A stretch of DNA of 50,671 bases, from NCBI GenBank assembly GCA_902775555.1, contig CACYMQ010000040.1:1-50671 (forward strand). Direction: 5' to 3'. The stretch is from an uncultured Lachnospiraceae bacterium. GTDB taxonomy: Bacteria; Bacillota; Clostridia; Lachnospirales; Lachnospiraceae. Each line of letters begins with the position of its first letter. Position 1 is the stretch's first letter. Position numbers and translations under genes: made by a program. Under the pieces are notes generated by a model, which was given only the letters and a program-made list of their open reading frames with translations, was not told where the DNA came from and searched no databases. This document shows, piece by piece, positions 32,505 to 50,671 of this stretch.

Positions 32505-33437
32505 ATGCAGGTTACGGTAATTGACACAAAATACGGAACCAGTACATACGATCTGAATGCCATGGGTAAGAATGCCATCTCGTTCGGTCGTAAGGCAGAT
32601 TGTGACATCGTGATGCAGTCTTCCTTTGTATCACGTCCGCATGGCGTGATCTTCATGGAAAACGGAAGCTGGTATGTACAGGATACGAACAGTACCTATG
32701 GTATGTACTGGATGGATCGCAAGGTTGATAAGGTTCCTGTTACGGACGGAACGGTTATCCGGATCTATTCGGAAGGGAATATCAACGGACGGTATGTGGA
32801 GCTCCGGTTCAGCGAGCCGTATGTGCAGCCACCGTATGTTCCTCCGGTAGAGCCTCCGGTAGAGCCTCCGGTAGATCCTCCGGTTATCGAACCGGAACCC
32901 AAGGGCAGCGGCAAGACGGTTGCCATCATCCTTTCGGTGGTGGTTGCAGCCCTGGCGATCGGACTTGTTCTTTTCTTTGTACTTCGTACGGGCACTACTG
33001 CGAAGACGAAGGAAGATGCACTTAAGAACTTTGCAAGTGCCATGTCGAAGAAGGATGCTGGAAAGCTTCTCGATACCATGTTCCCGGATGCGATCCGCAG
33101 CCAGTATGAGAAGAAGATGAAAGCCAACGGATACAGTGATCTGGAAGCGGTTGTAAATACGCTGCTCCTGGTGGGACTGGGCGACAGCTACGAATGCGAG
33201 TTCGTGAGTATGTCCGAGACGAAGGTCTACAACTGGGAAGAGATCCAGACGTTTGAAACGGATACGCTGGGCGTGAATCCTGCGGATGTAAAGATCCAGG
33301 ATATGGTTGCCGTAAAGGCGAACTTCCGGATGAAGGGCCAGATCGGTTCGAAATTCACGGAGGACTGGATCACAAATGATATGACTGCATATCTGTATAT
33401 GGTTGATGATGCATGGTATGTATTCCCGAATAATTAA
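32505..33437 (+). CDS. FHA domain - Pro-rich linker - membrane helix - outer domain
   Basis: 310 residues. The FHA domain (1-100) keeps Gly28-Arg29, Ser43-Arg44 and His46, the residues that hold phosphothreonine, but the usual NGT near the end reads YGM, so binding is probable, not certain. A linker of VEPP repeats follows, then a helix (about 139-160), then about 145 outer residues with the DUF4878-like pattern (TKEDALKNFASAMSKKD, a small alpha/beta sensor domain). Topology is FHA inside. ATG 32505 follows GGGAGGAG. It has its own promoter and terminator, so it is a separate unit just upstream of the kinase operon. A candidate target of the kinases. Confidence 0.85.
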   Translation: MQVTVIDTKYGTSTYDLNAMGKNAISFGRKADCDIVMQSSFVSRPHGVIFMENGSWYVQDTNSTYGMYWMDRKVDKVPVTDGTVIRIYSEGNINGRYVELRFSEPYVQPPYVPPVEPPVEPPVDPPVIEPEPKGSGKTVAIILSVVVAALAIGLVLFFVLRTGTTAKTKEDALKNFASAMSKKDAGKLLDTMFPDAIRSQYEKKMKANGYSDLEAVVNTLLLVGLGDSYECEFVSMSETKVYNWEEIQTFETDTLGVNPADVKIQDMVAVKANFRMKGQIGSKFTEDWITNDMTAYLYMVDDAWYVFPNN

Positions 33438-33446
33438 AAGTTAAAT

Positions 33447-33484
33447 AACGGTTCCGCTGTCCCCGGATGGCGGAACCGTTTTTC
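33447..33484 (+). terminator. Terminator after the FHA membrane gene
   Basis: AACGGTTCCGC (33447-33457) pairs with GCGGAACCGTT (33470-33480), with T residues after it. Confidence 0.93.
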
Positions 33485-33599: not shown

Positions 33600-34331
33600 A
33601 TGATTACCTATAAGCTTTATAGCAATACCGGCAGCAGAGAGGTGAACGAAGACAGTGTAGGACAGCTTGAAAAAGACGGGTCCTGCTGCTTTGTTCTGGC
33701 GGATGGACTGGGCGGTCACGGGAAAGGGGAAGTGGCATCTTCCATAGCCGTTGAGACTGCTCTGAAGCTCTTCGATGAGGAAGGGACCACGCCGGCATAT
33801 CCTGCGGAGTGTTTTAAAAAGGTGCAGGAGACCGTCCTGGCAGAACAGCAGCGTTCCCAGGAACTGGCCGATATGAAGACCACGATGGTTCTCCTTCGGA
33901 TTTCTCAGAAGGAAGTGGTCTGGGGCCATATCGGGGATTCCAGGCTCTATCATTTTCAATCCGGAAGATTAAAATCACATACACTCGATCACAGTGTGCC
34001 CCAGATGCTTGTCAGCGCAGGGGAGATCCGGGAGAAGGATATCCGGTTTCATGAAGACAGGAACCGGCTTCTTCGCGTGATAGGCGCGGAATGGGGAAAC
34101 AGGTCCTTTGATCTGTCCGTGCCGGTTGAACAAAGGGAAGGACAGGCGTTCCTTCTTTGCTCGGATGGCTTCTGGGAACTGATCGACGAGAGGCAGATGG
34201 TAAAGACTCTCCGATCCGCTTCGACGGTAGAGGAATGGATGGATGCCATGGTAAAGATCGTCAACGAGCAGGGAAAAGGCAGAGATATGGACAACAACTC
34301 CGCTATCGCAGTGTGGGTGACAAAGGAGTAA
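33600..34331 (+). CDS. PP2C-type Ser/Thr protein phosphatase
   Basis: 243 residues, cytosolic, metal-dependent. The motifs are NEDS, VLADGLGGHGKGE, the central GDSRLY, LLCSDGFWE and DNNSAIAVW, so all metal ligands appear present. It would remove phosphate from the neighbouring kinases and their targets. I chose ATG 33600 (MITYKLYSNTG) after GGGGG; an in-frame TTG at 33540 is the promoter's -35 box and cannot be translated. It leads the operon, with three bases to the next gene. Confidence 0.93.
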   Translation: MITYKLYSNTGSREVNEDSVGQLEKDGSCCFVLADGLGGHGKGEVASSIAVETALKLFDEEGTTPAYPAECFKKVQETVLAEQQRSQELADMKTTMVLLRISQKEVVWGHIGDSRLYHFQSGRLKSHTLDHSVPQMLVSAGEIREKDIRFHEDRNRLLRVIGAEWGNRSFDLSVPVEQREGQAFLLCSDGFWELIDERQMVKTLRSASTVEEWMDAMVKIVNEQGKGRDMDNNSAIAVWVTKE

Positions 34332-34334: not shown

Positions 34335-36554
34335 ATGGTCAGAAGATGCATGAGCTGCATGAAGGAGTACACGGTACCTCAGGGTTATGAACAGGTCAGG
34401 TTGTGCTGCCCTCATTGCGGATACCTGGAAGGAACCCCGCCGAAGGAAGCGAATCATCTCTATCCGGGGATGGTCCTTCAGGACAGATATGAGATCGGTA
34501 TTGTAGTAGGTTTCGGTGGTTTCGGTATCATCTATAAGGCCTGGGACAGGCAATTGGATATCGTTGTCGCCATCAAGGAATACTATCCTTCCGGCATGGT
34601 GACAAGAGAACCCGGTCAGAAGAATGTCATCGTATACGAAGGGGACCGGAAAAAAGACTATTATGAAGGCCTGGGACGGTTTCTTGAAGAGGCCAGAACG
34701 ACGGCCCAGTTTGACCATAGTGAATATATCGTTCAGGTGAAGAATTTCTTCCAGGAGAATAATACAGCCTATATCGTCATGGAATACCTGAACGGGATCT
34801 CCCTGAAGGATTATATGAAAATGTCAGGGAAGATGAAGGTGAAGGATGCGCTTCAGGTGACGGATGCGGTTGTGGAAGCGCTGAAGGAAATGCATGCAGC
34901 AGGGATCCTTCACAGAGACATCGGCCCCGGGAACATTTTCATTTACGGAAGACAGATCAAGGTCATTGATTTCGGTCTGGCCCGTCTCTCGGATACGGAA
35001 AAGGAACTGACGCGTTCCGTTGCCCTGACTCCGGGATATGCGCCGCCGGAACAGTATCAGAATAAGAGTAAACAGGGTCCGTGGACGGACATCTATGCCC
35101 TTGCCGCTACACTTTATACGATGGTGACAGGCCAGAAGCCCGAGGAAAGCTCGGACCGTCAGATGGAAGACCTGCAGCAGGATGCAAAGGATGTGAATCC
35201 CGAGATCCCCGAGGATCTCAGCAATGCCATCATGAAGGGAATGGCTGTAAATCCGGAGCTTCGTTTCCGGACAGTGGAAGATTTTTCGGAGGCCATTCAC
35301 GGGAAGAAGAAGGTCGATACACCCAAAGAGGAATTGGGAAAGCGAAAGAGAAGGCGGCTCATCTCCATAGCGGCGGTGATCCTGGTCCTTCTTACGGGTG
35401 TGGCCTTTATCGGGCTGCATTACCGGCGTCAGTGGAAGGATACGCATCTTAGTGCAGCCACCCTGAAGGTATGGGTTCCCTATGAGGATGATCATACTGC
35501 GGAGGAGGCGAAGAACCGCTTCGTCGGAACGCAGGATATGGCCGGCGTTACAAAGTCCTTTCATGATAATTTTCCACAGATCGTACTGGAGGTGGAATAT
35601 ATCCCCCGGAGCCAGTACGGAGAACGGCTTAAGTCGGCAGCTGCGTCGGGATCTCTTCCCGCAGTATACTGCATGGACGGGGTGGATCCTTCTCTGCTCG
35701 ATCAGGCAGAGGATCTCGGCACAGTGTACGATGCACTGGCTGCGGAGAATTATTATTACCTGGATGATTACAGGAAGCAGGGAGATCCCAGGCAGATCCC
35801 CATGGGACTGGATGTTCCGATCATTTATGCCGGTGACGGAACCGGATATGATTATACACAGCTTTCGCTGACAGACTATCCGTCTTTGCAGCAGGAACCG
35901 GCAACAGGTTACTACATGGTTCCGGAGGACTACTCGATGCTGATCAATACCATGGGCGGGTCCTTCCGGTATACGGATAAACTGGAGATGGATCAGAAGG
36001 CAAAGGATATGATCTCGGATCTTCTGACCTATGAAACTGCTTCTTCCGGTGAAGGCGGGGAAACAAAGAGTATTGCAGACACGGATGCCGCAGGACAGGC
36101 TTTCGCGGAAGGAAAGATCACTTATTTCCTCGGCAGCTATAAGGATCAGGAACGGTTTGACCGGATCGCTTCCGAACGGGCCTACCGGCATTATGCCGTA
36201 CCCGGACAGACGATCTACGCCGAGTTCTGTGATTACTGGTGCATCAGTAAGTCTGCAGCCGAAGATGAAGATGTGAAAAAGGCAGCGGAGAAGCTGTTGG
36301 AAATGATGATGGAGCCCTACGGACAGCAGGCCATGCACAATTCAGGGTCTTACAGGGAGGCGCTCCCCATTAATAAAGACGCATTTAAAACATTTGTAGA
36401 ATCAGAGACCAGCTTGGATTTTCTGAACGGTTATATGGATCATCTGACATTCCTGTACAGGGATCGGGAGGCTGAGAACGGGAAAGCCCGTCAGCTGCAG
36501 TCGGATGTGGTCGTGGACCGGAAGAAAACGGTAGAGCAGTGGTTGGAGGAGTAG
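34335..36554 (+). CDS. Receptor Ser/Thr kinase with N-terminal zinc ribbon and solute-binding-protein ectodomain
   Basis: 739 residues. Residues 5-33 are a zinc ribbon (CMSC ... CPHC). A Hanks-type kinase follows (about 52-325): Gly-loop GFGGFG, Lys81 in VAIK, His193-Arg194-Asp195 with HRDIGPGN, DFG, and APPEQY, so activity is expected. A membrane helix lies at about 342-361. The outer part (about 375-739) resembles a family 1 ABC solute-binding protein, TLKVWVPYEDDH followed by clamshell-type segments, with no lipobox. This pairing would let a kinase sense a small ligand directly. The start ATG 34335 lies three bases after the PP2C stop, and three bases after its own stop the next kinase begins. 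Confidence 0.92.
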   Translation: MVRRCMSCMKEYTVPQGYEQVRLCCPHCGYLEGTPPKEANHLYPGMVLQDRYEIGIVVGFGGFGIIYKAWDRQLDIVVAIKEYYPSGMVTREPGQKNVIVYEGDRKKDYYEGLGRFLEEARTTAQFDHSEYIVQVKNFFQENNTAYIVMEYLNGISLKDYMKMSGKMKVKDALQVTDAVVEALKEMHAAGILHRDIGPGNIFIYGRQIKVIDFGLARLSDTEKELTRSVALTPGYAPPEQYQNKSKQGPWTDIYALAATLYTMVTGQKPEESSDRQMEDLQQDAKDVNPEIPEDLSNAIMKGMAVNPELRFRTVEDFSEAIHGKKKVDTPKEELGKRKRRRLISIAAVILVLLTGVAFIGLHYRRQWKDTHLSAATLKVWVPYEDDHTAEEAKNRFVGTQDMAGVTKSFHDNFPQIVLEVEYIPRSQYGERLKSAAASGSLPAVYCMDGVDPSLLDQAEDLGTVYDALAAENYYYLDDYRKQGDPRQIPMGLDVPIIYAGDGTGYDYTQLSLTDYPSLQQEPATGYYMVPEDYSMLINTMGGSFRYTDKLEMDQKAKDMISDLLTYETASSGEGGETKSIADTDAAGQAFAEGKITYFLGSYKDQERFDRIASERAYRHYAVPGQTIYAEFCDYWCISKSAAEDEDVKKAAEKLLEMMMEPYGQQAMHNSGSYREALPINKDAFKTFVESETSLDFLNGYMDHLTFLYRDREAENGKARQLQSDVVVDRKKTVEQWLEE

Positions 36555-36557: not shown

Positions 36558-39500
36558 ATGGCGGAAAAGCGCTGTATGGGATGTATGGAATGCTACGATG
36601 AAGCGATCCATGTATGTCCCCATTGCGGATATGTGGAAGGTACGCCGGCTCGGGAAGCATATCACCTGACGCCCGGTACGGTCCTGAACGGAAAGTATCA
36701 GGTAGGCCGCGTACTCGGATACGGCGGTTTCGGTGTTACCTATATCGGTTTTGACAGGCTTCTTGGTCATAAGATCGCCATTAAGGAGTATCTGCCGGGA
36801 GAGTTCGCCACACGAAGTGCGGGGACAACGGCGGTTACGATATTCACCGGAGATAAAGAAGAACAGTTTTATGGAGGGATCCGGAAGTTCTCCGACGAGG
36901 CAAAACGCCTTGCACAGATGGATGGTGTGCGGGGAGTTGTGAGGATCATCGATACATTTTCGGAAAATAATACATCCTATATCGTCATGGAATATCTGGA
37001 CGGCGAAAACCTGAAGCAGCGTCTGGACAGAGAAAAGAAGATCCCGGTGGAGGAAGCGATAAAGATCATTCTTCCGGTGTTGGACGCATTGCAGAGCGTT
37101 CATGAAAAAGGAATGCTGCATAGAGATATCTCGCCGGACAATATCTTCCTGACCAAAAGCGGAGAAGTAAAACTTCTGGATTTCGGTGCGGCACGTTACG
37201 CCACTACGGCACACAGCCGGAGTCTTTCGGTCATTGTAAAGCAAGGCTTTGCTCCGGAAGAACAGTACCGCAGCCGGGGGAACCAGGGTACCTGGACGGA
37301 TGTATATGCCTGCGGGGCCACACTCTATAAGATGATCACCGGAGTCACTCCCGAGGATGCCATGGAGAGGAAGGAGAAGGACGAACTTCTTCCGCCGTCC
37401 AAGCTCGGAGTGAAAGTGGATAAGAATACGGAAACTGCGATCATGAACGCCATGAACATCCTGATCGAGGACCGTACCCAGACCGCGGCGGAGTTCAAAC
37501 AGGAACTGACCTCCGAGACAGGTGTAAAAGTGAAGAAAAGCCACCTCAAGATCGCAGATGTAGGGAAGTGGCCCAAGTGGGTAAAGATCGCTTCTTCCGT
37601 AGCGGCGGCAGCCATCGTGACGGTCCTGATCCTTGCGCTGGCAGGAGTGTTCAGGATTGGTCCTGACGAGACGGAAACCCCGGGACTCGGATCGGGTCAG
37701 CTGTATATGATCCAGGTGACAGGCAGATCGGTTGAGGATGCAAGAGCAGCGCTTCTTGCAGTCGATCTTTCCTCTGATACGGAGGATGGCGTCTACTCTA
37801 CTACACCCGCCGGCTGGGTCTATGAACAGAGCATCGACAAGGGACAGATCGTAGAGAAAGGAACGGTGATCCAGCTTACCTTCAGTAAAGGGGTGGAGAA
37901 GGTTACGCTGGATGATCTCACCGGAAAGACAAAGGCGGAAGCGGAAGCCTGGCTGAAAGAGAAAGGCTTTACATCTGCCGTGGAAGAGATCCCGAGTTCC
38001 ATAGAACCCGGGACTGTGGTACGGACGGATCCGGAGGCCGGCGACATCGATAAGGGATCCGAAGTTAAACTGTATATCTCCAAGGGAATGGAGAATCTGG
38101 ATCCTACAAAGGAAACAACGGTTCCGAACGTGGTCGGCAAGACCGAACAGGAAGCGGAACGCCTTGCGTCGGATGCCGGCATGTACATCAAGACAAAGAA
38201 GGCCATCAGCGATACCGTGCCTGAGGGACAGGTCATTTCCCAAAGTCCTAAAGGCGGGGCGAAAGCGCATGAAGCGGATACGCTGGAAGTGGTTGTAAGT
38301 GAAGGTGCGAAGAAGAAACAGAAGGTGCCTTCCATCATGTATGAAAAGAAGAATACTGCGGCGTCCAGGCTTTCCGAACGGAACCTGAAGGCAACGTATG
38401 TGTATAAAGACAGTGATTATCCGACAGATACGGTAATCGGAGTAAGCCCGTCGGTGGGTTCCAATGTATATGAAGGGGATACGATAACCGTGACATTGTC
38501 CCGTTATAAGGTTGTTCCGAATCCGGGACCGGGACCGGAACCGGAACCGACAACGTCAACGGAACCGGATTCTACAACGGACGTTCCTCCCGGGCCGGGA
38601 CCCGTACCGAAGGTTTCCGTACCGAATGTGGTCGGGAAGTCGGTTTCCGGTGCGTCTTCGACTCTGTCAGGTGCCGGCCTGAAACTGGGAGACCGGAAAA
38701 CGGAATGGACAACGAACAAGAGCAATGACGGAAAGATCAAATCCCAGAGCCCTGGCAGTGGTTCCTCTGTAAATCAAGGTACAGCTGTAGATGTGGTTGT
38801 TTATGAATACTACGATGATAAACCGAAGGTTTCCGTGCCGAATATTGCCGGGAAGTCAGTCTCCGATGCAAAGACGATCCTCTCAGGCTCCGGGCTCAAA
38901 CTTGGAACTCAGTCAAAGGAAAAAACAAGCAACAAGAACAATGACGGGAAGATCAAGTCGCAGGATCCCAAGAGTGGTTCCTCCGTTGATCAGGGTTCAA
39001 CAGTAAATGTGGTCGTTTATGAATACCACGGACCTGTGCCGACGATCAGTGTACCGAATGTGGTCGGGAAGTCGGTCTCCGATGCATCCGCGATCCTTTC
39101 AAATTCCGGGTTCAAGCTCGGGACACAGACCAAGGAAAGTACAACCACCAAGAGCAATGACGGAAAGATCAAATCCCAGGATCCGAAGAGCGGTTCCTCT
39201 GCGGAGAAGGGGGCTGTGGTCAACGTGGTGGTTTATGAGTATTCGGATGAATATGTAACGGTTCCGATCCTCACAAATTATAAGTATTCCCAGGCGAGCA
39301 GCGTACTGGCGGAAGAAAAACTGGTCCTTGGTTCAAATGTTTCGTACTATCACAGCAATTCCAAGTCGGATGGTATGATCCTTGCCTATTCACCGTCAGG
39401 CAAGGTCAAGAAAGGGACGACGATAACGGTTTCCGTATGTGACAACAGCAAGAAGACACTGTACAGGATATCAAGGGTTGTAAGTACGGAGACGGTAAAG

Positions 39501-39704
39501 ACCACCTCACAAAATCCGCCTGCAAAAGATACGGATACCGTGAAATATTATCTGGCTGACAGCTCGGAAGAAGAGCAGGTGTGGTACTGGACCAAATTGA
39601 CCTGGGGCCCCTGGACTGACTATGGTGAAACAGAGTATCAGGAAGAGAAGAATAAGATCCGTGTTGAAACCAAAACAGTCAACAAATATCCGGATTTTAA
39701 CTGA
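36558..39704 (+). CDS. Receptor Ser/Thr kinase with N-terminal zinc ribbon and eight PASTA-like repeats
   Basis: 1048 residues. A zinc ribbon (CMGC ... CPHC) precedes a Hanks-type kinase: GYGGFG, Lys76 in IAIK, HRDISPDN at about 188-195, DFG, APEEQY. A membrane helix lies at about 344-366. Outside are about eight PASTA-like units; four, a Gly/Pro/Glu-rich linker, then three very alike (VPNVVGKS...) and one diverged unit. PASTA domains of PknB/PrkC bind peptidoglycan fragments or lipid II, so a wall sensor is likely. The C-terminal tail (TLYRISRVVSTETVKTT and a Trp-rich part) resembles the start of the secreted protein at 50517. Canonical PrkC has three or four PASTA units and no zinc ribbon. 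Confidence 0.93.
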   Translation: MAEKRCMGCMECYDEAIHVCPHCGYVEGTPAREAYHLTPGTVLNGKYQVGRVLGYGGFGVTYIGFDRLLGHKIAIKEYLPGEFATRSAGTTAVTIFTGDKEEQFYGGIRKFSDEAKRLAQMDGVRGVVRIIDTFSENNTSYIVMEYLDGENLKQRLDREKKIPVEEAIKIILPVLDALQSVHEKGMLHRDISPDNIFLTKSGEVKLLDFGAARYATTAHSRSLSVIVKQGFAPEEQYRSRGNQGTWTDVYACGATLYKMITGVTPEDAMERKEKDELLPPSKLGVKVDKNTETAIMNAMNILIEDRTQTAAEFKQELTSETGVKVKKSHLKIADVGKWPKWVKIASSVAAAAIVTVLILALAGVFRIGPDETETPGLGSGQLYMIQVTGRSVEDARAALLAVDLSSDTEDGVYSTTPAGWVYEQSIDKGQIVEKGTVIQLTFSKGVEKVTLDDLTGKTKAEAEAWLKEKGFTSAVEEIPSSIEPGTVVRTDPEAGDIDKGSEVKLYISKGMENLDPTKETTVPNVVGKTEQEAERLASDAGMYIKTKKAISDTVPEGQVISQSPKGGAKAHEADTLEVVVSEGAKKKQKVPSIMYEKKNTAASRLSERNLKATYVYKDSDYPTDTVIGVSPSVGSNVYEGDTITVTLSRYKVVPNPGPGPEPEPTTSTEPDSTTDVPPGPGPVPKVSVPNVVGKSVSGASSTLSGAGLKLGDRKTEWTTNKSNDGKIKSQSPGSGSSVNQGTAVDVVVYEYYDDKPKVSVPNIAGKSVSDAKTILSGSGLKLGTQSKEKTSNKNNDGKIKSQDPKSGSSVDQGSTVNVVVYEYHGPVPTISVPNVVGKSVSDASAILSNSGFKLGTQTKESTTTKSNDGKIKSQDPKSGSSAEKGAVVNVVVYEYSDEYVTVPILTNYKYSQASSVLAEEKLVLGSNVSYYHSNSKSDGMILAYSPSGKVKKGTTITVSVCDNSKKTLYRISRVVSTETVKTTSQNPPAKDTDTVKYYLADSSEEEQVWYWTKLTWGPWTDYGETEYQEEKNKIRVETKTVNKYPDFN

Positions 39705-39748: not shown

Positions 39749-40438
39749 ATGCTGCGTATAGCGATTTGTGATGATGATAGTACGGATGTGAAGATCATTC
39801 ATGACTGTTTATCTGCTACATTATTTGATGTAGAAGATATACAGGTTTCCAGTTATCCGAACGGGAAGGAACTGATCAATCATCTTCAGGAGGATCCGGA
39901 GGGGATCGATCTTCTCCTGCTGGATATCGGGATGACACCGGTAGACGGCATGGAAGCTGCAGGATACATCCGGGATCAAAAGCTGGATATGGATATTATT
40001 TTCATAACCAAGTCCACGGAGTATGTATATCAGGGGTATCAATATCGTGCCTATGCATATATCCTGAAGGATCATTTAAAAATGAACCTTCCGGAGGTCC
40101 TGGTCCGGTATGTGGAGGAGCTTATCCATAGTGAAGCTTATATGAATGTTTCTGCCTCGGGAGAGATGCACCGGGTTCCCATGTCGGCGATCCGCTATGT
40201 GGAGAGCAGTGGACGGAAGCTGATCCTGCATCTGGCAGATGAGGAGATCAGCTTCTACAGCAAGATGTCGGATATCGAGGATGAGATGGGCAGGCAGGGA
40301 TTTGTGCGGATCCATCAGAGTTATATGGTATCCAAAAAATATGTCCGGAAGCTGCGTAAGGATGCAGTTGTCCTGGAGGATATGGAACTGCCGGTGAGCC
40401 GCAGATATGCCGAACAGGCAAAGCAGATGCTCAGTTAA
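39749..40438 (+). CDS. Orphan LytTR response regulator (AgrA/LytR type)
   Basis: 229 residues. The receiver has the acidic cluster Asp8-Asp10, the phospho-acceptor Asp59 in LLLLDIG, Thr88 and Lys107, so it appears phosphorylatable. The LytTR DNA-binding domain is at about 130-229 (IRYVESSGRKLILHLADEE, FVRIHQSYMVSKKYVRKL). It lies within the Ser/Thr kinase operon and no histidine kinase is nearby, so it could be a target of the kinases or be served by a distant sensor. ATG 39749 follows GGAGTGGACG. Confidence 0.9.
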   Translation: MLRIAICDDDSTDVKIIHDCLSATLFDVEDIQVSSYPNGKELINHLQEDPEGIDLLLLDIGMTPVDGMEAAGYIRDQKLDMDIIFITKSTEYVYQGYQYRAYAYILKDHLKMNLPEVLVRYVEELIHSEAYMNVSASGEMHRVPMSAIRYVESSGRKLILHLADEEISFYSKMSDIEDEMGRQGFVRIHQSYMVSKKYVRKLRKDAVVLEDMELPVSRRYAEQAKQMLS

Positions 40439-42080: not shown

Positions 42081-42083
42081 ATA

Positions 42084-43310
42084 GTGGACGAGCGATATTT
42101 TTTAAAACAAAATACAAAACTGAATAATCGATATATCGTTCAGAAGCCTGTGGGATCCGGTGGATTCGGGATCACCTATAAAGCGTTTGATACCCGGTTG
42201 AATAACAGTTGTTGCGTAAAAGAGCTGTTTCCGAGGGACACGGTATACAGGACACAGGGAAATATGTCCCTTGCACCCTTCTCCAGCGACAGAAAAAGAA
42301 TGATGGATCATTGTATCCAGAGGTTCGGAGAGGAAGCACAGCTCCTGCAGAAACTGGGCAACGTGGAATCTGTCGTCAATATCTATGATTTCTTTTATGA
42401 GAATAACACCTGTTATTTTGTCATGGAATTTCTGGACGGCGCAAACCTGAGCACCCTGATGAAGGCTTCGGGAGGAAAACTTCCGCTGAAGACGGTCCTG
42501 GAGGTTGCAGAGAAGGCCGGACATGCCCTGATCGAGGTTCATAAGAACGGGATCTTTCACCGGGATATCAGTCCGGACAATATCTTCATTACGCAGGACG
42601 GCAGGATCAAGCTGATCGATTTCGGTAATGCGAAGCATCTGGTCAAGAAAGAAGGGGAGATCCGTTCCGTCGTTCTGAAGAAGGGCTTTGCACCCATGGA
42701 ACAGTATTCCTCCAAGGGGATACAGGGGACCTATACGGATGTATATTCCTTCGCATGCACGCTGTATTATGCACTGACAGGAGTAAAGATACCGGATGTC
42801 TTCGATCGTCAGACAGAAGATTATAAGAAACTGACGGAGTTCGGTTTTTCCCAGAATCTGTCCGATGGTTTTGACCGGGCACTGGCGATCAGTTATAAAC
42901 TCCGGACACAGACCATCGGTGAGTTTCTGAAGGATATTAAGGTGGGAGCGGTTACGCCGCCACCACCACCGCCACCACCGCCGGAGAATACATTTCCGGC
43001 ACTGGAGCTATATGTATACGGAAGGTATTACGGCTGCTTCAAGATCCGTCCGAATATGAATATCGTGGTTGGAAGAAAGGTTGGAGTCGCGGGCTTCATC
43101 GTGGATGAGGAACATGTAAGTTCCAGACACTGTGAGATCTTCTATTCCACCATTGACCATATGTTTTATGTGCTGGATCATTCGACAAACGGGACTTATG
43201 TCAATGGGATCCGCGTGAAGAGAGAAGGGATCGTTACCGCCAAGGTCGGTGATCAGATCGCACTAGGCAGCGTGAACGGGATCATTATACTAAGGGAAAT
43301 AAAAAACTAA
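42084..43310 (+). CDS. Soluble Ser/Thr kinase fused to an FHA domain
   Basis: 408 residues, no membrane helix and no zinc ribbon. Kinase at about 17-285: GSGGFG, Lys46 in CCVKELF, HRDISPDN at 159-166, DFG, APMEQY. A run of nine prolines is followed by a C-terminal FHA domain (about 300-408) with a full phosphothreonine site: VVGRK, SSRHCEI, STNGTYVNG. Such a fusion can bind its own or a partner's phosphorylated activation loop. GTG 42084 starts three bases after the preceding stop. The PP2C remnant follows at once. Confidence 0.93.
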   Translation: MDERYFLKQNTKLNNRYIVQKPVGSGGFGITYKAFDTRLNNSCCVKELFPRDTVYRTQGNMSLAPFSSDRKRMMDHCIQRFGEEAQLLQKLGNVESVVNIYDFFYENNTCYFVMEFLDGANLSTLMKASGGKLPLKTVLEVAEKAGHALIEVHKNGIFHRDISPDNIFITQDGRIKLIDFGNAKHLVKKEGEIRSVVLKKGFAPMEQYSSKGIQGTYTDVYSFACTLYYALTGVKIPDVFDRQTEDYKKLTEFGFSQNLSDGFDRALAISYKLRTQTIGEFLKDIKVGAVTPPPPPPPPPENTFPALELYVYGRYYGCFKIRPNMNIVVGRKVGVAGFIVDEEHVSSRHCEIFYSTIDHMFYVLDHSTNGTYVNGIRVKREGIVTAKVGDQIALGSVNGIIILREIKN

Positions 43311-43324: not shown

Positions 43325-44076
43325 ATGTTTGTAGATATTGATAAAATAGAAGAAGCGGAAGAGCCCACAGTCGTCCTTGACAGTTATGAAGTGACGGGTG
43401 AGGATTTTTCCCTGAAAATGGGACTCTCCAGTATTCTCGGAACCAGGAAGAACCAGCAGGACAGCGTTTACGGACAGGTGGACGGGAAAAGAGCGCTGGC
43501 CATCGTATGTGACGGAATGGGCGGTATGAATGGAGGAGAACTTGCCAGCCAGACGGCTGTAAAGATCCTTGCCGAAGATTATTACAAAAACAGGCCTGAT
43601 TCTGACATTCCCGGTTTTTTCCGTGAAGAAGCAATTAAAATGAATGCAGCGGTGAGGGATCTGGAGGATGGTAAAGGAAATCCTCTGAACGGGGGAACCA
43701 CGGTGTGGCGGTAAACCGGGAACACAACTTCCGGATGCGTCTGGATGAGAGACTGAAATCCGGTGCGATCACAAAGGAGCAGTATAAGAAAGAGGAAGGG
43801 CAGGCGGAGGCACTGATCAGCTATCTGGGGATCGAAGATCTGACCCTGATGGATATCAACAAGAAACCGTTCCTGCTCCAGGAAAACGATATCGTGCTTC
43901 TTTGCAGTGACGGACTCTATAAGTGTCTCAAGGAAAGTGAGATCGGAGAACTGGTCTACTACGAGGAACCGGATATGGAACGTGCGGCAAGAAGACTGAC
44001 GAATGTTGTATTAAAGAGAAAAAAACGTTCTCAGGACAATACTTCACTGGTGATCATGCAGTACAATAGGTACTAA
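43325..44076 (+). pseudogene. Second PP2C phosphatase gene, missing its central segment
   Basis: The first frame (43325 to a stop at 43714) encodes the PP2C start with NQQDSVYG, VCDGMGGMNGGE and NGGTTV, then stops. The second frame (from about 43705 to 44076) continues with VNREHNFRM, LLCSDGLYKCL and SQDNTSLV. The two halves are joined directly: about 29 residues, holding the GDSR motif, are absent. The lost length would be one more than a multiple of three. The 5' part has AAAGGA upstream. Without the centre neither half should be active. A natural deletion and an assembly gap are both possible. Confidence 0.8.
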
Positions 44077-44110: not shown

Positions 44111-44703
44111 ATGAACTTAACAAGATGTGCAAACGGACACTTTTATGATGCGGATGCTTTTCAGTTCTGCCCGCATTGTAATGCAGTGTATTTGACACAC
44201 CCACTGCTCCGCATACGATGCCTGCGCAGCCCGAAACGGTTACAAATGATTCACTGAGTGAGCAATTACAGAAGTTGGGCGATGTCGGAGGTTTTGAGGA
44301 TGAGGAGACAGACAAAACCGTAAGATATCAGTCTCTGAATGCAAAGCAGTCTCCGGTCGTTGGCTGGCTTGTATGTATCAGTGGGGAAGAGATCGGACGC
44401 AGCTTTGAGCTGAAGGAAGGAAGGAATTTCATCGGAAGAAGTGATTCCCAGGATGTTACACTTACCGGCGATAAGAGTATTTCCAGAGAAAAGCATGCGA
44501 TCCTTGTTTATGATCCGAAATCCAGGGTATTCATGGTACAGCCGGGTGAATCCCATGAACTGTTCTATCTGAATGACGAGGTTGTTTTGGGATCAACGAA
44601 ACTTGCGATCAATGATAAGATCCTGATCGGGAATACAAAGCTGATATTTGTTCCTTTCTGCGGAGAGTCCTTTGCATGGGAGGACCTGGATAAGGCAGAG
44701 TGA
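44111..44703 (+). pseudogene. CxxxH-CxxC module plus FHA gene, frame broken near 44180
   Basis: AAGGAGGAG precedes ATG 44111. The first 23 residues are the module also found in the next two genes (Cys6, His10, Cys20, Cys23). Soon after CPHCNA the frame changes; the downstream frame reads VFDTPTAPHTMPAQPE and gives a linker and an FHA domain (FIGRSDSQD, SISREKHAIL). The FHA part could start by itself at ATG 44218 but has no ribosome site. A deletion of one (or an insertion of two) more than a multiple of three explains it. Followed by a strong terminator. Confidence 0.7.
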
Positions 44704-44766: not shown

Positions 44767-44787
44767 TATCAAAAATGAGGAAGACAT

Positions 44788-45639
44788 ATGAATATCATTC
44801 AGTGTAGGTTCGGGCACTATTATGATCATGACGTATTTGCGGAATGCCCACACTGCGCAAAGCAGGCAAATGCGGTATCACCATCCCCGCTGGAAATGAA
44901 CAGAGGAATCGTGGATAATTCGGAAACAGTGTTGGTGCGCCAACCGTTTCAGTGGGGAGTGGAGGATAAAGAAAAAGAGGATAATGACAGAACGGTTCTG
45001 TTTCATGAGGATGATGTGGCACCATCAGGCCTGACCTACGGGCAGGAGAAGGAGAGACAGAACGTTTCTTTCCGTGAGGAATCAGAGTCGGAAACGACAC
45101 TGCTGACACGGGATGAATGGAAAAGAGGATTGATCGTAGGATGGCTGATCGGTGTGACCGGATCAGCCTATGGCCAGTTTTACCCGTTGTTCACGGACAA
45201 CAACTGGGTTGGTACGGATAAGGAAAACCAGCTGATGGTTGGGATTCAGAGTGATGGCTACAGTTGTGTAAACTGCGTCATCAGTTTTGATATGAAGTCA
45301 AAGGAGTTTTTCGTTAACGGGGAACTTCGTATCGCGAATAAGGCAACAACTCCGATCTATGTTGACGGAGATCTGATAGATGGGACCAAATACCTGAAGG
45401 ATCAGGATATTCTGGAGATAGAGGGCCTGCAGTATGAGCTGATCAAGCTTTGCAAGGACGGTTTCTCCTGGTGGAAGGAGAAGAAGAAAACAGGACGGAC
45501 GGAAATGCTCACCATCGATGATGTTATGGGGCAGCCGTCGGAGGACAGCCAGGGAGAGTATTGGAACTGTCCGGTATGTTCGGCGAGAAATCACAGACTT
45601 CAAAGATATTGTCTGACTTGTGGAAGGAGTAGATTCTGA
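44788..45639 (+). CDS. CxxxH-CxxC module, degenerate FHA, and C-terminal zinc ribbon
   Basis: 283 residues, soluble. The N-terminal module has Cys6, His10, Cys20 and Cys23 with HYYDHD between. A charged linker follows, then an FHA-like fold (about 112-225; LIVGWLIGVTGSAYGQFYPL). It lacks Gly-Arg (WVGTDKE) and Ser-x-x-His (SCVNCVIS), so it probably does not bind phosphothreonine. The end is a four-Cys ribbon (NCPVC ... YCLTC). ATG 44788 follows GAGGAAGAC. Two bases after the stop comes the next gene. Looks like an adaptor protein. Confidence 0.8.
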   Translation: MNIIQCRFGHYYDHDVFAECPHCAKQANAVSPSPLEMNRGIVDNSETVLVRQPFQWGVEDKEKEDNDRTVLFHEDDVAPSGLTYGQEKERQNVSFREESESETTLLTRDEWKRGLIVGWLIGVTGSAYGQFYPLFTDNNWVGTDKENQLMVGIQSDGYSCVNCVISFDMKSKEFFVNGELRIANKATTPIYVDGDLIDGTKYLKDQDILEIEGLQYELIKLCKDGFSWWKEKKKTGRTEMLTIDDVMGQPSEDSQGEYWNCPVCSARNHRLQRYCLTCGRSRF

Positions 45640-45641
45640 TC

Positions 45642-47480
45642 ATGAATATAAGAAAATGTGCCCAGGGACATACATATGACTCGGATGTATATATGGAATG
45701 CCCATATTGCAGCAACCCGAATTATATCAATTACAGTGAAATGACCCCTTCGAATGCAGGAGATACGGAACTCCTCCGTGGGTCGGGGGCTCCGCAGGGC
45801 GCTCTGCTCCCGGCAGTTCCGGTGCGTCGTCCGAAACCGGTAGCGAATCCGCCGGAAGTAATCTACCAGGGAGCCGGTTATTATGGAGGAGCGGAGAATA
45901 TGCAGGGGCAGTATGGCCAGCAGATCCCTCCGTTTGATCCGAATCAGATGGGGATGCAGTTCTATCCGATGGATGAGGAACCGGCGACACAGTATCTCCG
46001 CCCGGATCAGCTTCAACAGGGATTCGGATCCCAGGGTCAGCAGGGATACGGCAGCCAGGGCCAGCAGGGATATAACGGCCAGGGCCAGCAGGGATATGGC
46101 AGCCAGGGCCAGCAGGGATATAACGGCCAGGGCCAGCAGGGATATAACGGCCAGGGCCAGCAGGGATACGGCGGTCAGGGCCAGCAGGGATATAACGGCC
46201 AGGGCCAGCAGGGATATAACGGCCAGGGCCAGCAGAATTATGGTGTGCCGGGAGAAACCTCTGAATTGCTGCAGAATATGGTTCAGCAGATGAAGGCCAG
46301 GGAAGGCATGCAATCCGGAAGTGCCGGAACAACAGTGCCCGGTAATTCCGGAAGAACTCCTGCCGGGAATGCGGGGGGAGTACAGTCCGGGAATGCCGGA
46401 AGAACGCCTGCCGGGAATATGGGCAACGTACAGCCCGGTAATTCCGGAAGGATCGCATCGGGAAATGCCGGAGGCGCCGCTGCCGGGAATGCCGGAAGAG
46501 CAGCATCCGGAAATGCCGATCGGCCACGGACTCCGAATACTGCCGGTCCCCGTTCGGATGCTTCCGTAAAGCGGCAGGACTCCAGGCCTGCGTCAGGAAA
46601 GGGATCGGGAGGAAAGAAGAACTCCCAGTTCCCCGGATGGATGATCATGATCATAGTTCTTTCCGCACTTATGGCAGCAGGTGGTGTGGTATTCTTCCTT
46701 CTGGGTCTGTCTAAATCAAAGGAGAGGAGTTCGTCGGGCAGTTACACTCCGGTTTCCGGTTCTTCCGGAGCAGGCAGTTCTACAGAAGCAGGCGGTTCTA
46801 CGGAAGCAGGCAGTTCTACGGAAACAGGCGTTCCTCCGGTGGCTCCCGTTCCGGGAACGAATGCTGCCACAGAACCCGGGTTCGTTATCACACAGGCACT
46901 GAAATTCAGTGACTATACCAAGGTGTGGAATATCACGGACGGAGGTAGTCTGAAGATCCGGAAGACGGGAGAAGCAACCGTTAGTTATGTGACCGGTAAG
47001 CAGATCACAGGCGTGAAATGGTCCTCTTCCGATGCGAAAGGCCTCTCCATTGATGAAAACGGAAACCTGAAGGTACTGAAGGAAGGCACTTGGACGGTAA
47101 CTGCAGAAGTGACAGGGGATGAGAGCGGAACCTACAGTTTCACGGTAGAAGCAGAAAAAGCCGGATGGATAAAGAAAGGGGAACACTTTTATTTTATCAA
47201 TGGTTCAGACGAAATTACAGTCGGACTGAGAAAGATCGGCGAGAAAGAATATTATTTCAACGAGGAAGGGATCATGCAGTCCGGGGTTCAGACAGTGGAT
47301 GGACAGAAGTACTATTTTAAACCCGACAAAAGCGGACATGCAGAAAAGATCCTGAATGATTGGGTTCAGGAAGGCGAGATCTATTACTATTGCACCGGAG
47401 ACGGAACACTGGCTACGGGTACTATGGAAATCGGCGGGAAAACGTACAAGTTTGATGAGAACGGAGTATGGAAGGAATGA
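45642..47480 (+). CDS. Membrane protein: CxxxH-CxxC module inside, Big2 and wall-binding-type repeats outside
   Basis: 612 residues. The N-terminal module (Cys6, His10, Cys20, Cys23) leads to a Pro-rich stretch, ten copies of an eight-residue QQGYNGQG unit (about 125-204), and a Gly/Asn/Ala-rich part with GNAGR units. A helix at about 333-355 has no signal peptide, so the N-terminal 330 residues are cytosolic. Outside are a Ser/Gly linker, a Big2-like domain (about 440-505) and about four repeats of the wall/glucan-binding type (QKYYFKPD, IYYYCTGDGTLATG). The gene starts two bases after the previous stop; the last four bases overlap the next start. It may tether the signalling proteins to the wall. 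Confidence 0.85.
   Translation: MNIRKCAQGHTYDSDVYMECPYCSNPNYINYSEMTPSNAGDTELLRGSGAPQGALLPAVPVRRPKPVANPPEVIYQGAGYYGGAENMQGQYGQQIPPFDPNQMGMQFYPMDEEPATQYLRPDQLQQGFGSQGQQGYGSQGQQGYNGQGQQGYGSQGQQGYNGQGQQGYNGQGQQGYGGQGQQGYNGQGQQGYNGQGQQNYGVPGETSELLQNMVQQMKAREGMQSGSAGTTVPGNSGRTPAGNAGGVQSGNAGRTPAGNMGNVQPGNSGRIASGNAGGAAAGNAGRAASGNADRPRTPNTAGPRSDASVKRQDSRPASGKGSGGKKNSQFPGWMIMIIVLSALMAAGGVVFFLLGLSKSKERSSSGSYTPVSGSSGAGSSTEAGGSTEAGSSTETGVPPVAPVPGTNAATEPGFVITQALKFSDYTKVWNITDGGSLKIRKTGEATVSYVTGKQITGVKWSSSDAKGLSIDENGNLKVLKEGTWTVTAEVTGDESGTYSFTVEAEKAGWIKKGEHFYFINGSDEITVGLRKIGEKEYYFNEEGIMQSGVQTVDGQKYYFKPDKSGHAEKILNDWVQEGEIYYYCTGDGTLATGTMEIGGKTYKFDENGVWKE
46014..46253 (+). repeat. Ten 24-bp tandem repeats encoding QQGYNGQG units
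   Basis: The units are in frame and differ mainly by AAC or GGC and GGC or AGC codons (GYGSQG or GYNGQG). Copy number could vary between strains without loss of frame. Not a CRISPR: no spacers. Confidence 0.95.
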
Positions 47481-50473
47481 GATCAAGATTTTTAAAAGGA
47501 TTGACAGGGCTTCTGACAGCCGGATTACTGTGTGCTTCCACATTTTCAATGGATTCCTTTGCAGATAATCCGATCATGATCGGCGGTGGCGGGTTCATGA
47601 TCAATGAAAATAATTTCCCGGATGCTGTATTTCGTGAATTTATCCAGGACAATTATGATCTGGACGGAGATACCATGCTGAGTGAAGCCGAGAAACAGAT
47701 GGTGACCAGCATGGATATCAGCCGGCTGGGGATCGAGGACGTGACAGGGATCGTGCAGTTTACCTATCTGGAGTCCTTTACCTGTGATTATAACGATTTG
47801 ACATCTTTGGAACTTCCGGACGAGCACATGAAATACCTTTCCTGTTCCCATAACCGGCTGATACAGTTCTATGCGGGAAACAAGCTGGAAACCATCTACT
47901 GCGATAACAATCAGCTGACGGAACTGGACCTCCAGGATATGACGGAACTGAAGGAGCTGGATTTCAGCAGGAACCGGGTGAATCGTATCGATCTCACCCA
48001 TAACTCAAAACTGAAAAGTCTGAAGTGCAGCAATAATTCCCTTACGGAACTGAATCTTGGATATAATACGGAGCTGGAGAGACTGGAAGTCTCCGGAAAT
48101 CCCATCCGGCTTCTGGAGCTCAGGAACAACCCGGATCTCAGTGCGCTGATGATTGGTTCGGATATGATCAAAGTGGAAAATGATGGTGACCTGGGATGGG
48201 TGACCAAAGGGGATAATACCTATTATGTGATGGATAAGAATACTAAACCGAAGAGTTCCAGGCTTGCGGTCGGTGAAAGAACGATCGACGGGAAGGATTA
48301 TACCTTTTCGGACGAGGGCGTCCTGATCCGGGATTCGTCCGGTTCCGGAACGACGGTAGCTACTGATAAGCTGATAGACATCACGGTATTACCTTCCTCT
48401 GTGGATATGACCCTGCTGGATACCAAACAGCTGGCGGTGGTAACCGATCCGTCGGATTTTCCGCGTGAGAAACTGGCATGGGCATCACTGGATGAGAATA
48501 TCGTACGAGTGGATTCCCAGGGGCGTATCACACCGGTGGGAGAGGGAAATACCTATGTTACTGTCAGCTCGACACAGGCCGGAGATGATGCTTACTATAT
48601 GGTACCGGTAAATGTCCGGCCGGTTCTGTCATTTACCTCAGAGCGTCTGGAGCTTTTGTCCGGGCAGGAGGAGCAGATCGAGGTCACCAGAAATACCGGT
48701 GAGATCAGCAGTATCCGTTATGCGTCAAATGATGACGAGATCGCAATTGTTGATGATTACGGAGTGGTAACAGCGGTCGGCGAGGGCCGTACGTCAATCG
48801 AGATCGCCGTGACGGGATATAACGGACAGACCGTGATCTATCAGATCTATGTAGAAGTTACATCAACCGATTATCTGGATCTTACGGTAAATGATCTTCG
48901 TGTCTTCTTCGATGACTCCGAGATCAGCGATCAGATCACCGCGGAGGAAGGTGATATCCTGGATCTGACGGTACTTATTGCGATGCAGGATCAGCGCACA
49001 TTCCGCGCTGACTATTCGACTCCGGAGGTTCAGACCGGAAATGGAAAGGTCAGGATGGTTTGGAGGACCAGTGATCCGAATGTTGCCAGTGTCAATCAGG
49101 GAAGGATCACGATCCGTTCCGCAGGCCTGGCGATCATCACGGTTCGGCCGGTCGGATTGGATCTTCCCATAACATTTACGATCAATGCGGCAAGGAAAAC
49201 CATCGATCTTCAACGGATCTCTATCATCAGTCCGAAGGATGAATATACGGTGGGTGATGTGGAATATCTGACAGCAGTTTATGCACCGCAGAATGCCGAT
49301 GACCGAAATACGGTCTGGGAGTCGACGGATCCGAAAGTCGCTACGGTAGATGCAAATGGCAGGCTCACGGTTCTTGCTTCCGGCTATACGATCATCACTG
49401 CAACAGCCGGTAAGAACGGATCCGTAGTCAATTCGGTCAGGATCAATGTCAGGAATATCCCTGTCAGCTTCCTGTATCTCGGAAAAGGCGGTATGACCGT
49501 ATCGGGAGGAAAGAACACCTACCGGCATGACGCTTCATTTGTGGATCATGCGGTATTTGAAATGAAGCATGGAGTGGATACGGGATTCTATGTACGTACC
49601 ATCGTGAACGGAGATGCGGGGATCAAGGATCTTGCGGCATCCTCTTCCTCGTCAGCTGTCGAGGTTACGGATGTAACTTCCTCTTTCTCGGGATTATCCG
49701 AGACAAACCGGATCTACCGCATCCTGCCGAAGGGTGTCGGTACCGCGACGATCACGATCCGAACAAAGGACGGAAGCAATATCAGTCAGTCATTTACGGT
49801 GAGAGTGCTGCCCTATAACGAATGGCTCAAAAACTCCTCCGGAGAGCTGGTTCATTACAATAAGAATTCCACCATCGATACAGGCTGGAAGAATCTATCC
49901 GGGAAATGGTATCATCTGAGATCCAACGGTGCTGCGGATACCGGATGGAAGAAGCTCGGGAAATGGTACTACTTTGATTCAAAAGGAGTTATGCAGACCG
50001 GTTGGAAGAAGCTGTCCGGCAAGTATTATTTCTTCGGTAAAGACGGAGCCATGAAAACCGGCTGGCAAAAATCCGGGAAGAAATGGTATTACCTGAATTC
50101 CGGCGGAGCCATGCAGACCGGTTGGAAGAAACTGGGCGGAAAGTGGTATCGGTTTGACGGATCGGGAGCCATGGTAACGGGATGGAAGCGGATCTCCGGG
50201 AAATGGTATTACTTTAACCCGTCCGGAGCCATGCAGACCGGTTGGAAGAAGCTGGGTGGAGACTGGTTCTATTTTGAAACCTCGGGAGCCATGAAGACCG
50301 GCTGGATGAAAAGCGGATCCGACTGGTATTATTTCCATGAGGATGAGAATGAAGGAACAGTCGGTTCCATGGCAACGGGAGAAACCTGGGTCGTTACCAA
50401 AGTTGAGGGCTTTACGACCTGGCGTACGCTGTACCGCTTCAATTCAAGCGGTGTCTGTCTGAACAGACGTTAG
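47477..50473 (+). CDS. Secreted surface protein: LRR, five Big2-like domains, wall-binding repeats
   Basis: 998 residues. A signal peptide (1-30, ending SFADN) precedes a calcium-loop-like segment (NYDLDGDTMLSEAE) and leucine-rich repeats of the LPxLxxLxCxxN type (about 85-235). Then come five bacterial Ig-like (Big2) domains (about 290-780; typical VRVDSQGRITPVGEG). The end has about eight glucan/choline-binding-type repeats (GWKKLSGKYYFFGKDGAMKT). I chose ATG 47477, overlapping the stop of the preceding gene (ATGA), with GGAG ten bases upstream; ATG 47468 is also in frame. The protein is likely held to wall polymers. It is co-transcribed with the membrane protein that carries similar repeats. 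Confidence 0.9.
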   Translation: MRSRFLKGLTGLLTAGLLCASTFSMDSFADNPIMIGGGGFMINENNFPDAVFREFIQDNYDLDGDTMLSEAEKQMVTSMDISRLGIEDVTGIVQFTYLESFTCDYNDLTSLELPDEHMKYLSCSHNRLIQFYAGNKLETIYCDNNQLTELDLQDMTELKELDFSRNRVNRIDLTHNSKLKSLKCSNNSLTELNLGYNTELERLEVSGNPIRLLELRNNPDLSALMIGSDMIKVENDGDLGWVTKGDNTYYVMDKNTKPKSSRLAVGERTIDGKDYTFSDEGVLIRDSSGSGTTVATDKLIDITVLPSSVDMTLLDTKQLAVVTDPSDFPREKLAWASLDENIVRVDSQGRITPVGEGNTYVTVSSTQAGDDAYYMVPVNVRPVLSFTSERLELLSGQEEQIEVTRNTGEISSIRYASNDDEIAIVDDYGVVTAVGEGRTSIEIAVTGYNGQTVIYQIYVEVTSTDYLDLTVNDLRVFFDDSEISDQITAEEGDILDLTVLIAMQDQRTFRADYSTPEVQTGNGKVRMVWRTSDPNVASVNQGRITIRSAGLAIITVRPVGLDLPITFTINAARKTIDLQRISIISPKDEYTVGDVEYLTAVYAPQNADDRNTVWESTDPKVATVDANGRLTVLASGYTIITATAGKNGSVVNSVRINVRNIPVSFLYLGKGGMTVSGGKNTYRHDASFVDHAVFEMKHGVDTGFYVRTIVNGDAGIKDLAASSSSSAVEVTDVTSSFSGLSETNRIYRILPKGVGTATITIRTKDGSNISQSFTVRVLPYNEWLKNSSGELVHYNKNSTIDTGWKNLSGKWYHLRSNGAADTGWKKLGKWYYFDSKGVMQTGWKKLSGKYYFFGKDGAMKTGWQKSGKKWYYLNSGGAMQTGWKKLGGKWYRFDGSGAMVTGWKRISGKWYYFNPSGAMQTGWKKLGGDWFYFETSGAMKTGWMKSGSDWYYFHEDENEGTVGSMATGETWVVTKVEGFTTWRTLYRFNSSGVCLNRR
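49883..50397 (+). repeat. Tandem 60-63-bp repeats encoding wall-binding units
   Basis: Several copies share near-identical DNA around ATGCAGACCGGTTGGAAGAA (49990, 50110, 50230). Conserved Trp, Tyr and Gly residues define each unit. Copy number may change by recombination. Confidence 0.88.
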
Positions 50474-50516
50474 GAATCCTATGACCTGTTCTATCGAAAC
50501 AAATTGGAGGTGACCT

Positions 50517-50671
50517 ATGAAAAAAAGATGGAAGAGCATTCTGATCGCGGCATCCCTGATCCTGGGTCAGTTTGCAGGATTGGCCATTCCGATGAAGGCG
50601 GAGGCGGCAACGACCTACAGATATACGCTCTACCGCTATAAGGATCTGGTGGATACCGAGTATAAAACCAC
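50517..50671 (+). CDS. Secreted protein, N-terminal part (3' end outside window)
   Basis: Only 51 residues are visible. A strong GGAGG lies six bases before ATG 50517. A signal peptide (KKRWKSILIAASLILGQFAG ... AEAA) is followed by TYRYTLYRYKDLVDTEYKTT. This last part resembles the tail of the PASTA kinase at 36558 (TLYRISRVVSTETVKTT). The 43 bases before the gene hold no terminator, so it is probably in the same unit as the LRR protein. Confidence 0.75.
   Translation, partial: MKKRWKSILIAASLILGQFAGLAIPMKAEAATTYRYTLYRYKDLVDTEYKT

Follow-up and report, generated by a model that had tools for sequence, protein, structure and literature searches.

A candidate stand-alone phospho-threonine signalling operon with a zinc-finger FHA adaptor in an uncultured Lachnospiraceae bacterium

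Gene content of the island

The window, that is, the whole stretch of DNA analysed here, is 50,671 nucleotides long and represents the entire contig CACYMQ010000040.1 of an uncultured Lachnospiraceae bacterium, the genome of which (3.0 Mb, 96 contigs) is 99.49% complete. From position 32505 to the contig end, all of the genes lie on the plus strand and form one copy of a linked gene set; since the window is the whole contig, this island is truncated at its right end. Its base composition is not distinct from that of its surroundings. Elsewhere in the window, a row of nine tRNA genes (23715-25137) is followed on its 3' side by an ABC transporter operon encoding an ATPase, two permeases and a solute-binding domain. 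The island contains the following features.

32505..33437, +: A, cytoplasmic FHA domain, TM segment (at 134) and ectodomain of unknown family (Pfam FHA 3.1e-15; pocket residues GR and SRPH kept)
33600..34331, +: B, PP2C phosphatase with a whole frame (Pfam PP2C_2 5.5e-18, ORF from 33540; NCBIfam Stp1 170.5 bits, cut-off 230)
34335..36554, +: C, zinc ribbon, Hanks kinase, TM segment and extracellular solute-binding-protein domain (Pfam Pkinase 8.1e-39, SBP_bac_8 1.4e-8)
36558..39704, +: D, zinc ribbon, Hanks kinase, TM segment and eight PASTA domains (Pfam Pkinase 2.1e-34, PASTA in 8 stretches)
39749..40438, +: E, response regulator with a LytTR DNA-binding domain (Pfam Response_reg 1.7e-14, LytTR 7.5e-20)
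40468..40738 (approximate), +: E2, remnant of a small FHA gene in two frames (92 nt absent relative to congener G010)
40752..42080, +: F, signal peptide, PASTA-like ectodomain, TM segment and FHA domain (Pfam FHA 1.2e-9, PASTA 5.9e-5)
42084..43310, +: G, soluble kinase with a C-terminal FHA domain (Pfam Pkinase 5.1e-33, FHA 7.5e-12)
43325..44076, +: H, second PP2C, in two frames (85 nt absent relative to congeners G010 and G016)
44111..44703, +: I, zinc-finger FHA adaptor (Zgh-FHA) with a DKTVRY motif, frame broken (about 94 nt absent relative to G010)
44788..45639, +: J, Zgh finger, linker with TVLF and TTLL motifs, FHA fold with a degenerate pocket and zinc-ribbon-like C-terminal end (AlphaFold2 model and PDB fold match)
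45642..47480, +: K, Zgh finger, Gln/Gly-rich linker, TM segment and extracellular cell-wall-binding repeats (Pfam Choline_bind_3 2.6e-9)
47468..50473, +: L, secreted protein with LRR, Big_2 and cell-wall-binding repeats (Pfam LRR_4, Big_2, Choline_bind_1 and Choline_bind_3)
50517..50671, +: further ORF, probably secreted, cut by the contig end

A preliminary description of this stretch had counted three Hanks-type kinases, two PP2C genes, one LytTR regulator, five zinc-type N-termini and three wall or secreted proteins, all on a single strand, and our analysis yielded the same numbers. The kinases (C, D and G) and the regulator (E) have Pfam matches, the PP2C genes comprise one full gene (B) and one in two frames (H), and two of the three wall or secreted proteins have choline-binding-type repeats, while the third, beginning at 50517 with a signal-peptide-like start as judged by eye, runs off the contig. 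Six FHA-type domains had also been reported; we found five FHA folds, and the number six is reached only if the broken remnant E2 is counted. Two corrections apply: the reading frames of H and I are broken, and the island extends to the end of the contig. The zinc-type N-termini, described as shared modules, do not form a common module but fall into two putative zinc-binding types: two of the kinases carry CxxC...CPxCG ribbons, and three other proteins carry a short CxxGHxYD...CPxC finger.

The Pfam FHA match of I spans the ORF at 44218-44703, and the residues of its pThr pocket are kept. J gave a Zn_ribbon_RanBP match (4.3e-4) that is below cut-off and is without a Pfam FHA match, yet its AlphaFold2 model resembles FHA structures; its pocket is degenerate in the window, G010 and G016 alike. 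K has the same architecture in G010 and G016 (three genomes in all) and, by linking a cytoplasmic finger to wall-binding repeats, may tie the complex to the wall. On another contig of the host genome (C65; L030 3660-5333 and 9089-14181), a DUF4139 protein bears a Zgh finger, indicating that this finger is used outside FHA proteins; an Fe-S protein, a GGDEF protein and two more membrane kinases are encoded nearby.

Within the 3.0-Mb host genome, about 12 kb of the island hold 4 of the 10 Pfam FHA matches, 3 of the 16 kinase matches and 2 of the 5 PP2C matches (one of these scoring under the cut-off), a concentration which argues that the gene density of the island is not due to chance. The types of component and the ideas involved (Hanks kinase, PP2C, FHA, VWA) are already known. 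Their arrangement as a stand-alone operon with a Zgh-FHA adaptor is one that we have not met in print: a search of the literature, with most subscription journals outside it, found no published description of an operon of this kind, and the accessible parts of PMC11217815, PMC1262709 and PMC7159879 do not describe such a stand-alone system.

Conserved gene order in related loci

Related loci were located by scanning named genomes with an alignment of four zinc-finger FHA proteins and keeping the best 80 of 120 candidates, which gave 79 loci. After six had been dropped (four duplicates, one near-copy and one overlapping) and the window and five congener loci found via J had been included, the final set again comprised 79 loci, in which genes were plain ORF calls and domain labels were assigned with local profiles made from window and congener sequences, with Pfam spot-checks. 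By title, the loci from the search (best 80 of 120) belong mostly to Clostridia, with a few from Synergistetes. Because the loci were collected through Zgh-FHA or J, the presence of Zgh-FHA, a label assigned in 65 of the 79 under the local-profile rules, is by construction and operons lacking it are missed; unlike that of Zgh-FHA, the presence of the other genes is not by construction.

Gene order, a stronger test against chance than the counts within the host genome, is conserved in this set, drawn from the best 80 of 120 candidates: the kinase with FHA (KIN-FHA), present in 48 loci, is directly followed by PP2C in 43 of the 79. PP2C stands immediately before Zgh-FHA in 50 loci, and Zgh-FHA before VWA-FHA in 33, while VWA-FHA, present in 51 loci, is directly followed by KIN-FHA in 32; the median intergenic gap is 18 bp (n = 454 gaps). 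The kinase/FHA/PP2C order thus recurs among the 79 loci, the opposite of the scattered arrangement against which the idea of one dedicated system, put forward in the preliminary description, had been set in advance, and supports that idea. The adaptor is patchily distributed, being present in 17 of 61 genomes of the genus (E < 1e-30) and in 7 of 248 further genomes sampled evenly across the phylum. Cultured carriers with KIN-FHA in the operon include Butyribacter intestini (L096) and Petralouisia muris (L060), both gut isolates.

A threonine motif in the linker of the adaptor

Alignment of 40 Zgh-FHA adaptors revealed that the finger residues C6, H10, C20 and C23 are present in all 40, and that the FHA pocket is similarly conserved (G-R and S in 40, H in 39 and N in 34). 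A regular expression for the FHA SxxH signature matched only 4 of 104 Zgh-FHA proteins although the aligned S and H are conserved, because these proteins carry one extra residue (SRxKH). In 38 of the 40 aligned adaptors, the linker contains a conserved Thr located 12-41 residues (median 15) N-terminal to the FHA core. Around this Thr, an acidic residue (D/E) is found at -4 in 34 of the 38 and K at -1 in 19, followed by V/I at +1 in 34, G/S/A/R at +2 in all 38 and F/Y/L/I/V/W at +3 in 36. The mean fraction of the commonest residue is 0.51 in the motif and 0.60 in the FHA domain, compared with 0.11 in the rest of the linker.

With a looser pattern, 63 of the 72 adaptors whose FHA core could be recognised had the motif in the 45 residues preceding that core (mean 3.2 and maximum 8 in shuffles); a stricter pattern matched 58 of the 104 adaptor linkers (3.1 in shuffles), although such shuffle tests overstate the number of independent events, since homologous linkers are not independent. 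Under the stricter pattern, the motif occurred in none of 49 KIN-FHA linkers, in 3 of 54 VWA-FHA segments (2.0 in shuffles), in 12 of 92 TM-FHA proteins (2.1 in shuffles) and in 9 of 114 PP2C N-termini (1.3 in shuffles). The motif is therefore strongly biased to the adaptor but not strictly confined to it, given that TM-FHA proteins and PP2C N-termini exceed the shuffles. One motif common to all FHA proteins of the operon was considered and rejected, KIN-FHA and VWA-FHA being near the shuffled level and occurrences in TM-FHA and PP2C N-termini being rare.

In the AlphaFold2 models, the finger and the FHA domain of the adaptor are predicted with high confidence, whereas the linker has low confidence (pLDDT about 47-59). 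The modelled FHA fold has PDB matches that include the FHA domains of GarA, OdhI and DgcB. In these proteins, according to the available parts of PMC5448819 and PMC6733907, a Thr of the N-terminal tail is the ligand of the protein's own FHA domain, and the DgcB paper emphasises the +3 position after the tail Thr. The conserved Thr motif before the FHA domain, together with the GarA/OdhI/DgcB-like fold and tail, suggests a switch in which the motif Thr would be phosphorylated. Of A and J, A scored only 21.8 bits with the OdhI model NF041660, below its cut-off of 200 bits, and J was without any NCBIfam match.

FHA-tagged outputs

FHA domains in the 79 loci (best 80 of 120) are attached to various proteins, namely VWA proteins (51 loci), ABC exporters (13 loci), trypsin-like proteases (7 loci) and otherwise unlabelled membrane proteins (62 loci), and in single cases to a VWA protein with lipase, a thermolysin with VWA and a LytTR regulator. 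The last of these (L117 3326-4447) is a LytTR response regulator fused to FHA and represents a direct link from phospho-threonine reading to transcription; LytTR genes are present in 21 of the 79 loci and lie directly 5' of a small FHA gene in 6. The thermolysin case (L104 12634-17133) is a protein of 1500 amino acids that combines a thermolysin-type peptidase, Big, VWA, a TM segment and FHA, and the lipase case, from a congener (L045 926-4441), is an FHA-TM-VWA-lipase fusion with a weak Mbeg1-like match, recalling the Mbeg1-like protein in the type VII locus of congener G002.

A linkage to surface proteins had been part of the preliminary description. For proteins with Big or wall-binding domains, this linkage is seen in the window but is not general, since such domains are present in only 14 of the 79 loci. 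Proteins of at least 900 residues with a TM segment and without kinase, FHA or ABC labels were found in 8 of the 79; of two such proteins run against Pfam, one contains lectin and fn3 domains (L057) and the other gave Ig-like matches below cut-off only (L104).

Interpretation of the island

Taken with its relatives, the island probably represents a modular phospho-threonine signalling operon, of which it is one copy and which acts in a stand-alone manner to control proteins of the envelope and surface. In this scheme, the cell surface would be read by membrane kinases that combine a zinc ribbon in the cytoplasm with an extracellular sensor of the solute-binding-protein or PASTA type, and either these kinases or the soluble KIN-FHA would phosphorylate Zgh-FHA on the motif Thr just before its FHA domain, the acceptor motif being acidic residues followed by T-[VI]-x-hydrophobic. 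As in GarA/OdhI, the phospho-threonine would then be bound by an FHA domain, either the adaptor's own or that of a partner. Candidate partners are the FHA-tagged outputs, i.e. VWA-TM-FHA, FHA-TM-protease, FHA-FHA-ABC exporter, polytopic TM-FHA, KIN-FHA and, in this clade, A. The state would be reset by PP2C enzymes, the genes of which lie between those of the partners, and the LytTR regulator, which is sometimes adjacent to FHA and once fused to it, may pass the signal to transcription.

State of the island in this genome

In the host genome, the island might be a decaying relic without function, a reading which we consider rather unlikely and which is compatible with the interpretation given above for the operon in general. 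Three genes lack stretches of similar length relative to G010, which together with G016 is the nearest congener carrying the island (92 nt in E2, 85 nt in H and about 94 nt in I), the stretch absent from H being the one in which G010 and G016 have a GDSK motif. F, which occupies the slot of VWA-TM-FHA, has lost the FHA pocket residues that are kept in G010 and G016. The broken frames of E2, H and I and the lost pocket of F indicate that the window copy may not be working. A kinase/solute-binding pair on another host contig (C57; L029 2023-4130) is split likewise, with 16-29 residues absent depending on the reference.

Set against decay are the low dN/dS values between the window and G010, which ranged from 0.037 to 0.205 in 12 of 13 island comparisons (that for F was not computable; its dS is saturated) and were 0.037, 0.077 and 0.106 for pieces of H and I, although these values reflect long-term purifying selection only, as dS exceeds 1 in every pair. 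In addition, gaps of like size on two contigs, one of them in the paralogous kinase of C57, also fit an assembly fault; recent decay and such a fault are both plausible. A search of positions 39700-45700 for direct repeats revealed short imperfect pairs only, none attributable to the missing stretches.

Relation to the PrkC/Stp pair

Among Gram-positive bacteria, Hanks kinases are chiefly familiar as members of single PrkC/Stp pairs. The island could accordingly be an amplified and decorated cell-wall pathway of this type, with ordinary PASTA-kinase signalling acting on extra substrates, and two of its members resemble such a pair: D has eight PASTA domains and scored 439.7 bits with the Stk1/PknB model NF033483, just under the cut-off of 450 bits, and the Stp1 match of B likewise stays under its cut-off. 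The same kinase model gave 187.8 bits for C and 129.2 bits for G. All three kinases keep the catalytic Lys, HRD and DFG; their catalytic loops, however, read HRDIGP in C and HRDISP in D and G, and the host genome possesses a separate PASTA kinase with the loop HRDIKP adjoining a PP2C gene on contig C5. In the related loci, the corresponding position of HRDIxP is Ser in 41 of 49 KIN-FHA and Lys in none. Furthermore, a PrkC/Stp pair includes no FHA, zinc or VWA parts and does not show the KIN-FHA gene order. We therefore consider this explanation improbable: judging from the HRDI[SG]P loops and the separate HRDIKP PASTA kinase with its PP2C on C5, the cassette appears to be distinct from the housekeeping PrkC/Stp pair.

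Relation to type VII secretion

According to the accessible part of Garrett and Palmer (2024, PMC11217815), several of the systems T7SSc-j include FHA proteins together with kinases and PPM phosphatases, and the island might be the regulatory arm of a T7SSe/f/j-like system, the core of which is elsewhere or lost. Some relatives would fit such a role. For example, in congener G002 a related cassette directly follows genes for FtsK/EssC, YukD and two WXG100 proteins, an arrangement much like T7SSe, and the same genome has a second EssC, with another Zgh-FHA at a distance of about 4 kb; a single contig of G061 carries both EssC and Zgh-FHA, separated by about 7 kb; and two loci (L129 and L091) have type VII genes nearby. 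Of the 79 loci (best 80 of 120), 2 have such genes within the stretch covered.

The preliminary description had found EssC and WXG100 to be lacking in the window, and this absence extends to the whole host genome, where two FtsK-type partial matches, the better with 107.7 bits against a cut-off of 778.4, fall short of a full EssC and the WXG100 profile PF06013 gave no matches at E 0.001. Among 50 carrier genomes selected from 71, EssC was absent from 41 at E 1e-40 and present in 9, a ratio on which the completeness of each genome has a bearing. Within the genus, EssC is present in 7 of 17 carriers versus 9 of 44 other genomes (Fisher p = 0.09; 0.14 with the strict set), and in 5 of the 7 EssC-holding carriers it is on a different contig from Zgh-FHA. 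The type VII-linked cassettes of G002 (L049) and L129 also contain DUF6382-FHA, whereas the window cassette does not; Pfam searches of the FHA proteins of the window gave no DUF6382 match, and the domain is present on host contigs C18 and C2.

With EssC in 9 of 50 carriers and type VII genes in 2 of 79 loci, a link to secretion exists in a subset, and the type VII-linked copies look like just such a subset. Type VII secretion is dispensable to the cassette; as its purpose, an idea prompted by G002, secretion was rejected in general on the EssC and WXG100 results from the host genome, the carriers and the genus, and a role of the island as a regulatory arm of this kind is very improbable.

A second cluster in the host genome, on contig C18 (L033 3015-16565), encodes two DUF6382-FHA proteins (one Pfam-checked), a PP2C, a TPR kinase and a 1796-residue Big_13 protein, and resembles the T7SSe/j accessory set although the host genome is without a full EssC.

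An anti-phage or conflict system based on Hanks kinases was likewise rejected as extremely unlikely, since the PADLOC matches consisted of kinase-domain matches (PD-T4-6 and mad6, with C, D and G) that cover the generic kinase domain and, for D, also the PASTA part, plus one weaker match of B to the candidate model PDC-M21C (45.9 bits), while six of the ten proteins run (A, F, J, a Zgh-FHA, a VWA-FHA and a TM-FHA) had none and the outputs known are envelope proteins.

Implications of a probable stand-alone operon

Returning to the stand-alone signalling operon, we tentatively put forward a broader possibility, held with somewhat less confidence: that these loci, from Clostridia and Synergistetes, represent an undescribed class of bacterial signalling operon. 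The zinc-finger FHA adaptor, its phospho-threonine motif being built in, would serve as a plug-in hub, FHA-tagged envelope proteins would be wired to the same kinases and phosphatases with no secretion machine, and like fingers on wall-binding proteins would tie the hub to the wall. If this is true, any envelope protein that gains an FHA tag, be it a VWA receptor, a protease, a lipase or an ABC exporter, would plug into the hub. A conserved operon that brings together an adaptor, kinases, phosphatases and FHA-tagged surface outputs of its own provides a phospho-signalling circuit that can be tested in bacteria of the gut and rumen, and it sets the kinase/FHA modules found beside type VII secretion apart from secretion itself. 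Since only one Thr motif is conserved, the central claim is directly checkable.

Comparison with known systems

Several known systems share parts with the island. The TerY-P triad consists of a TerY VWA protein, a kinase and a PP2C associated with Ter genes. PrkC/Stp1 resembles the island in combining a PASTA kinase and a PP2C, but most of the readable cassette loops are HRDI[SGA]P rather than HRDIKP, and the island has in addition a zinc ribbon and many FHA partners. The accessory proteins TsxD, TsxF and TsxJ of T7SSe/f/j, as described in the accessible part of PMC11217815, likewise place a kinase, a PPM phosphatase and an FHA protein in one cluster in Bacillota; the host genome of the island, however, is without EssC and WXG100, and KIN-FHA and Zgh-FHA, and in relatives VWA-TM-FHA, replace DUF6382-FHA.

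The threonine phosphorylation pathway of the type VI secretion system (PpkA, PppA and Fha) has kinase, PP2C, FHA and VWA as parts; PpkA is a kinase with VWA in the available text of PMC1262709, so that VWA is on the kinase in that pathway but on FHA proteins in the related loci. For PknF-Rv1747 of Mycobacterium tuberculosis, the portion of the literature available to us describes an FHA-bearing ABC exporter beside a Hanks kinase, and some of the related loci resemble it in having FHA2-ABCG; in these loci, however, the operon is larger and need not include the exporter, which is present in 13 of the 79 (best 80 of 120) and absent from the window. A likeness to the adaptor itself is offered by GarA, OdhI and DgcB, which, in the accessible parts of PMC5448819 and PMC6733907, have a disordered tail containing a Thr with an acidic residue before it and hydrophobic residues after it, and which share the predicted fold. 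Zgh-FHA differs from them in that the residue at +1 of its Thr is V/I, whereas it is Ser in the known tails according to the available text of the DgcB paper, and in its N-terminal CxxGH...CPxC finger and its setting in an operon of kinase, PP2C and FHA genes.
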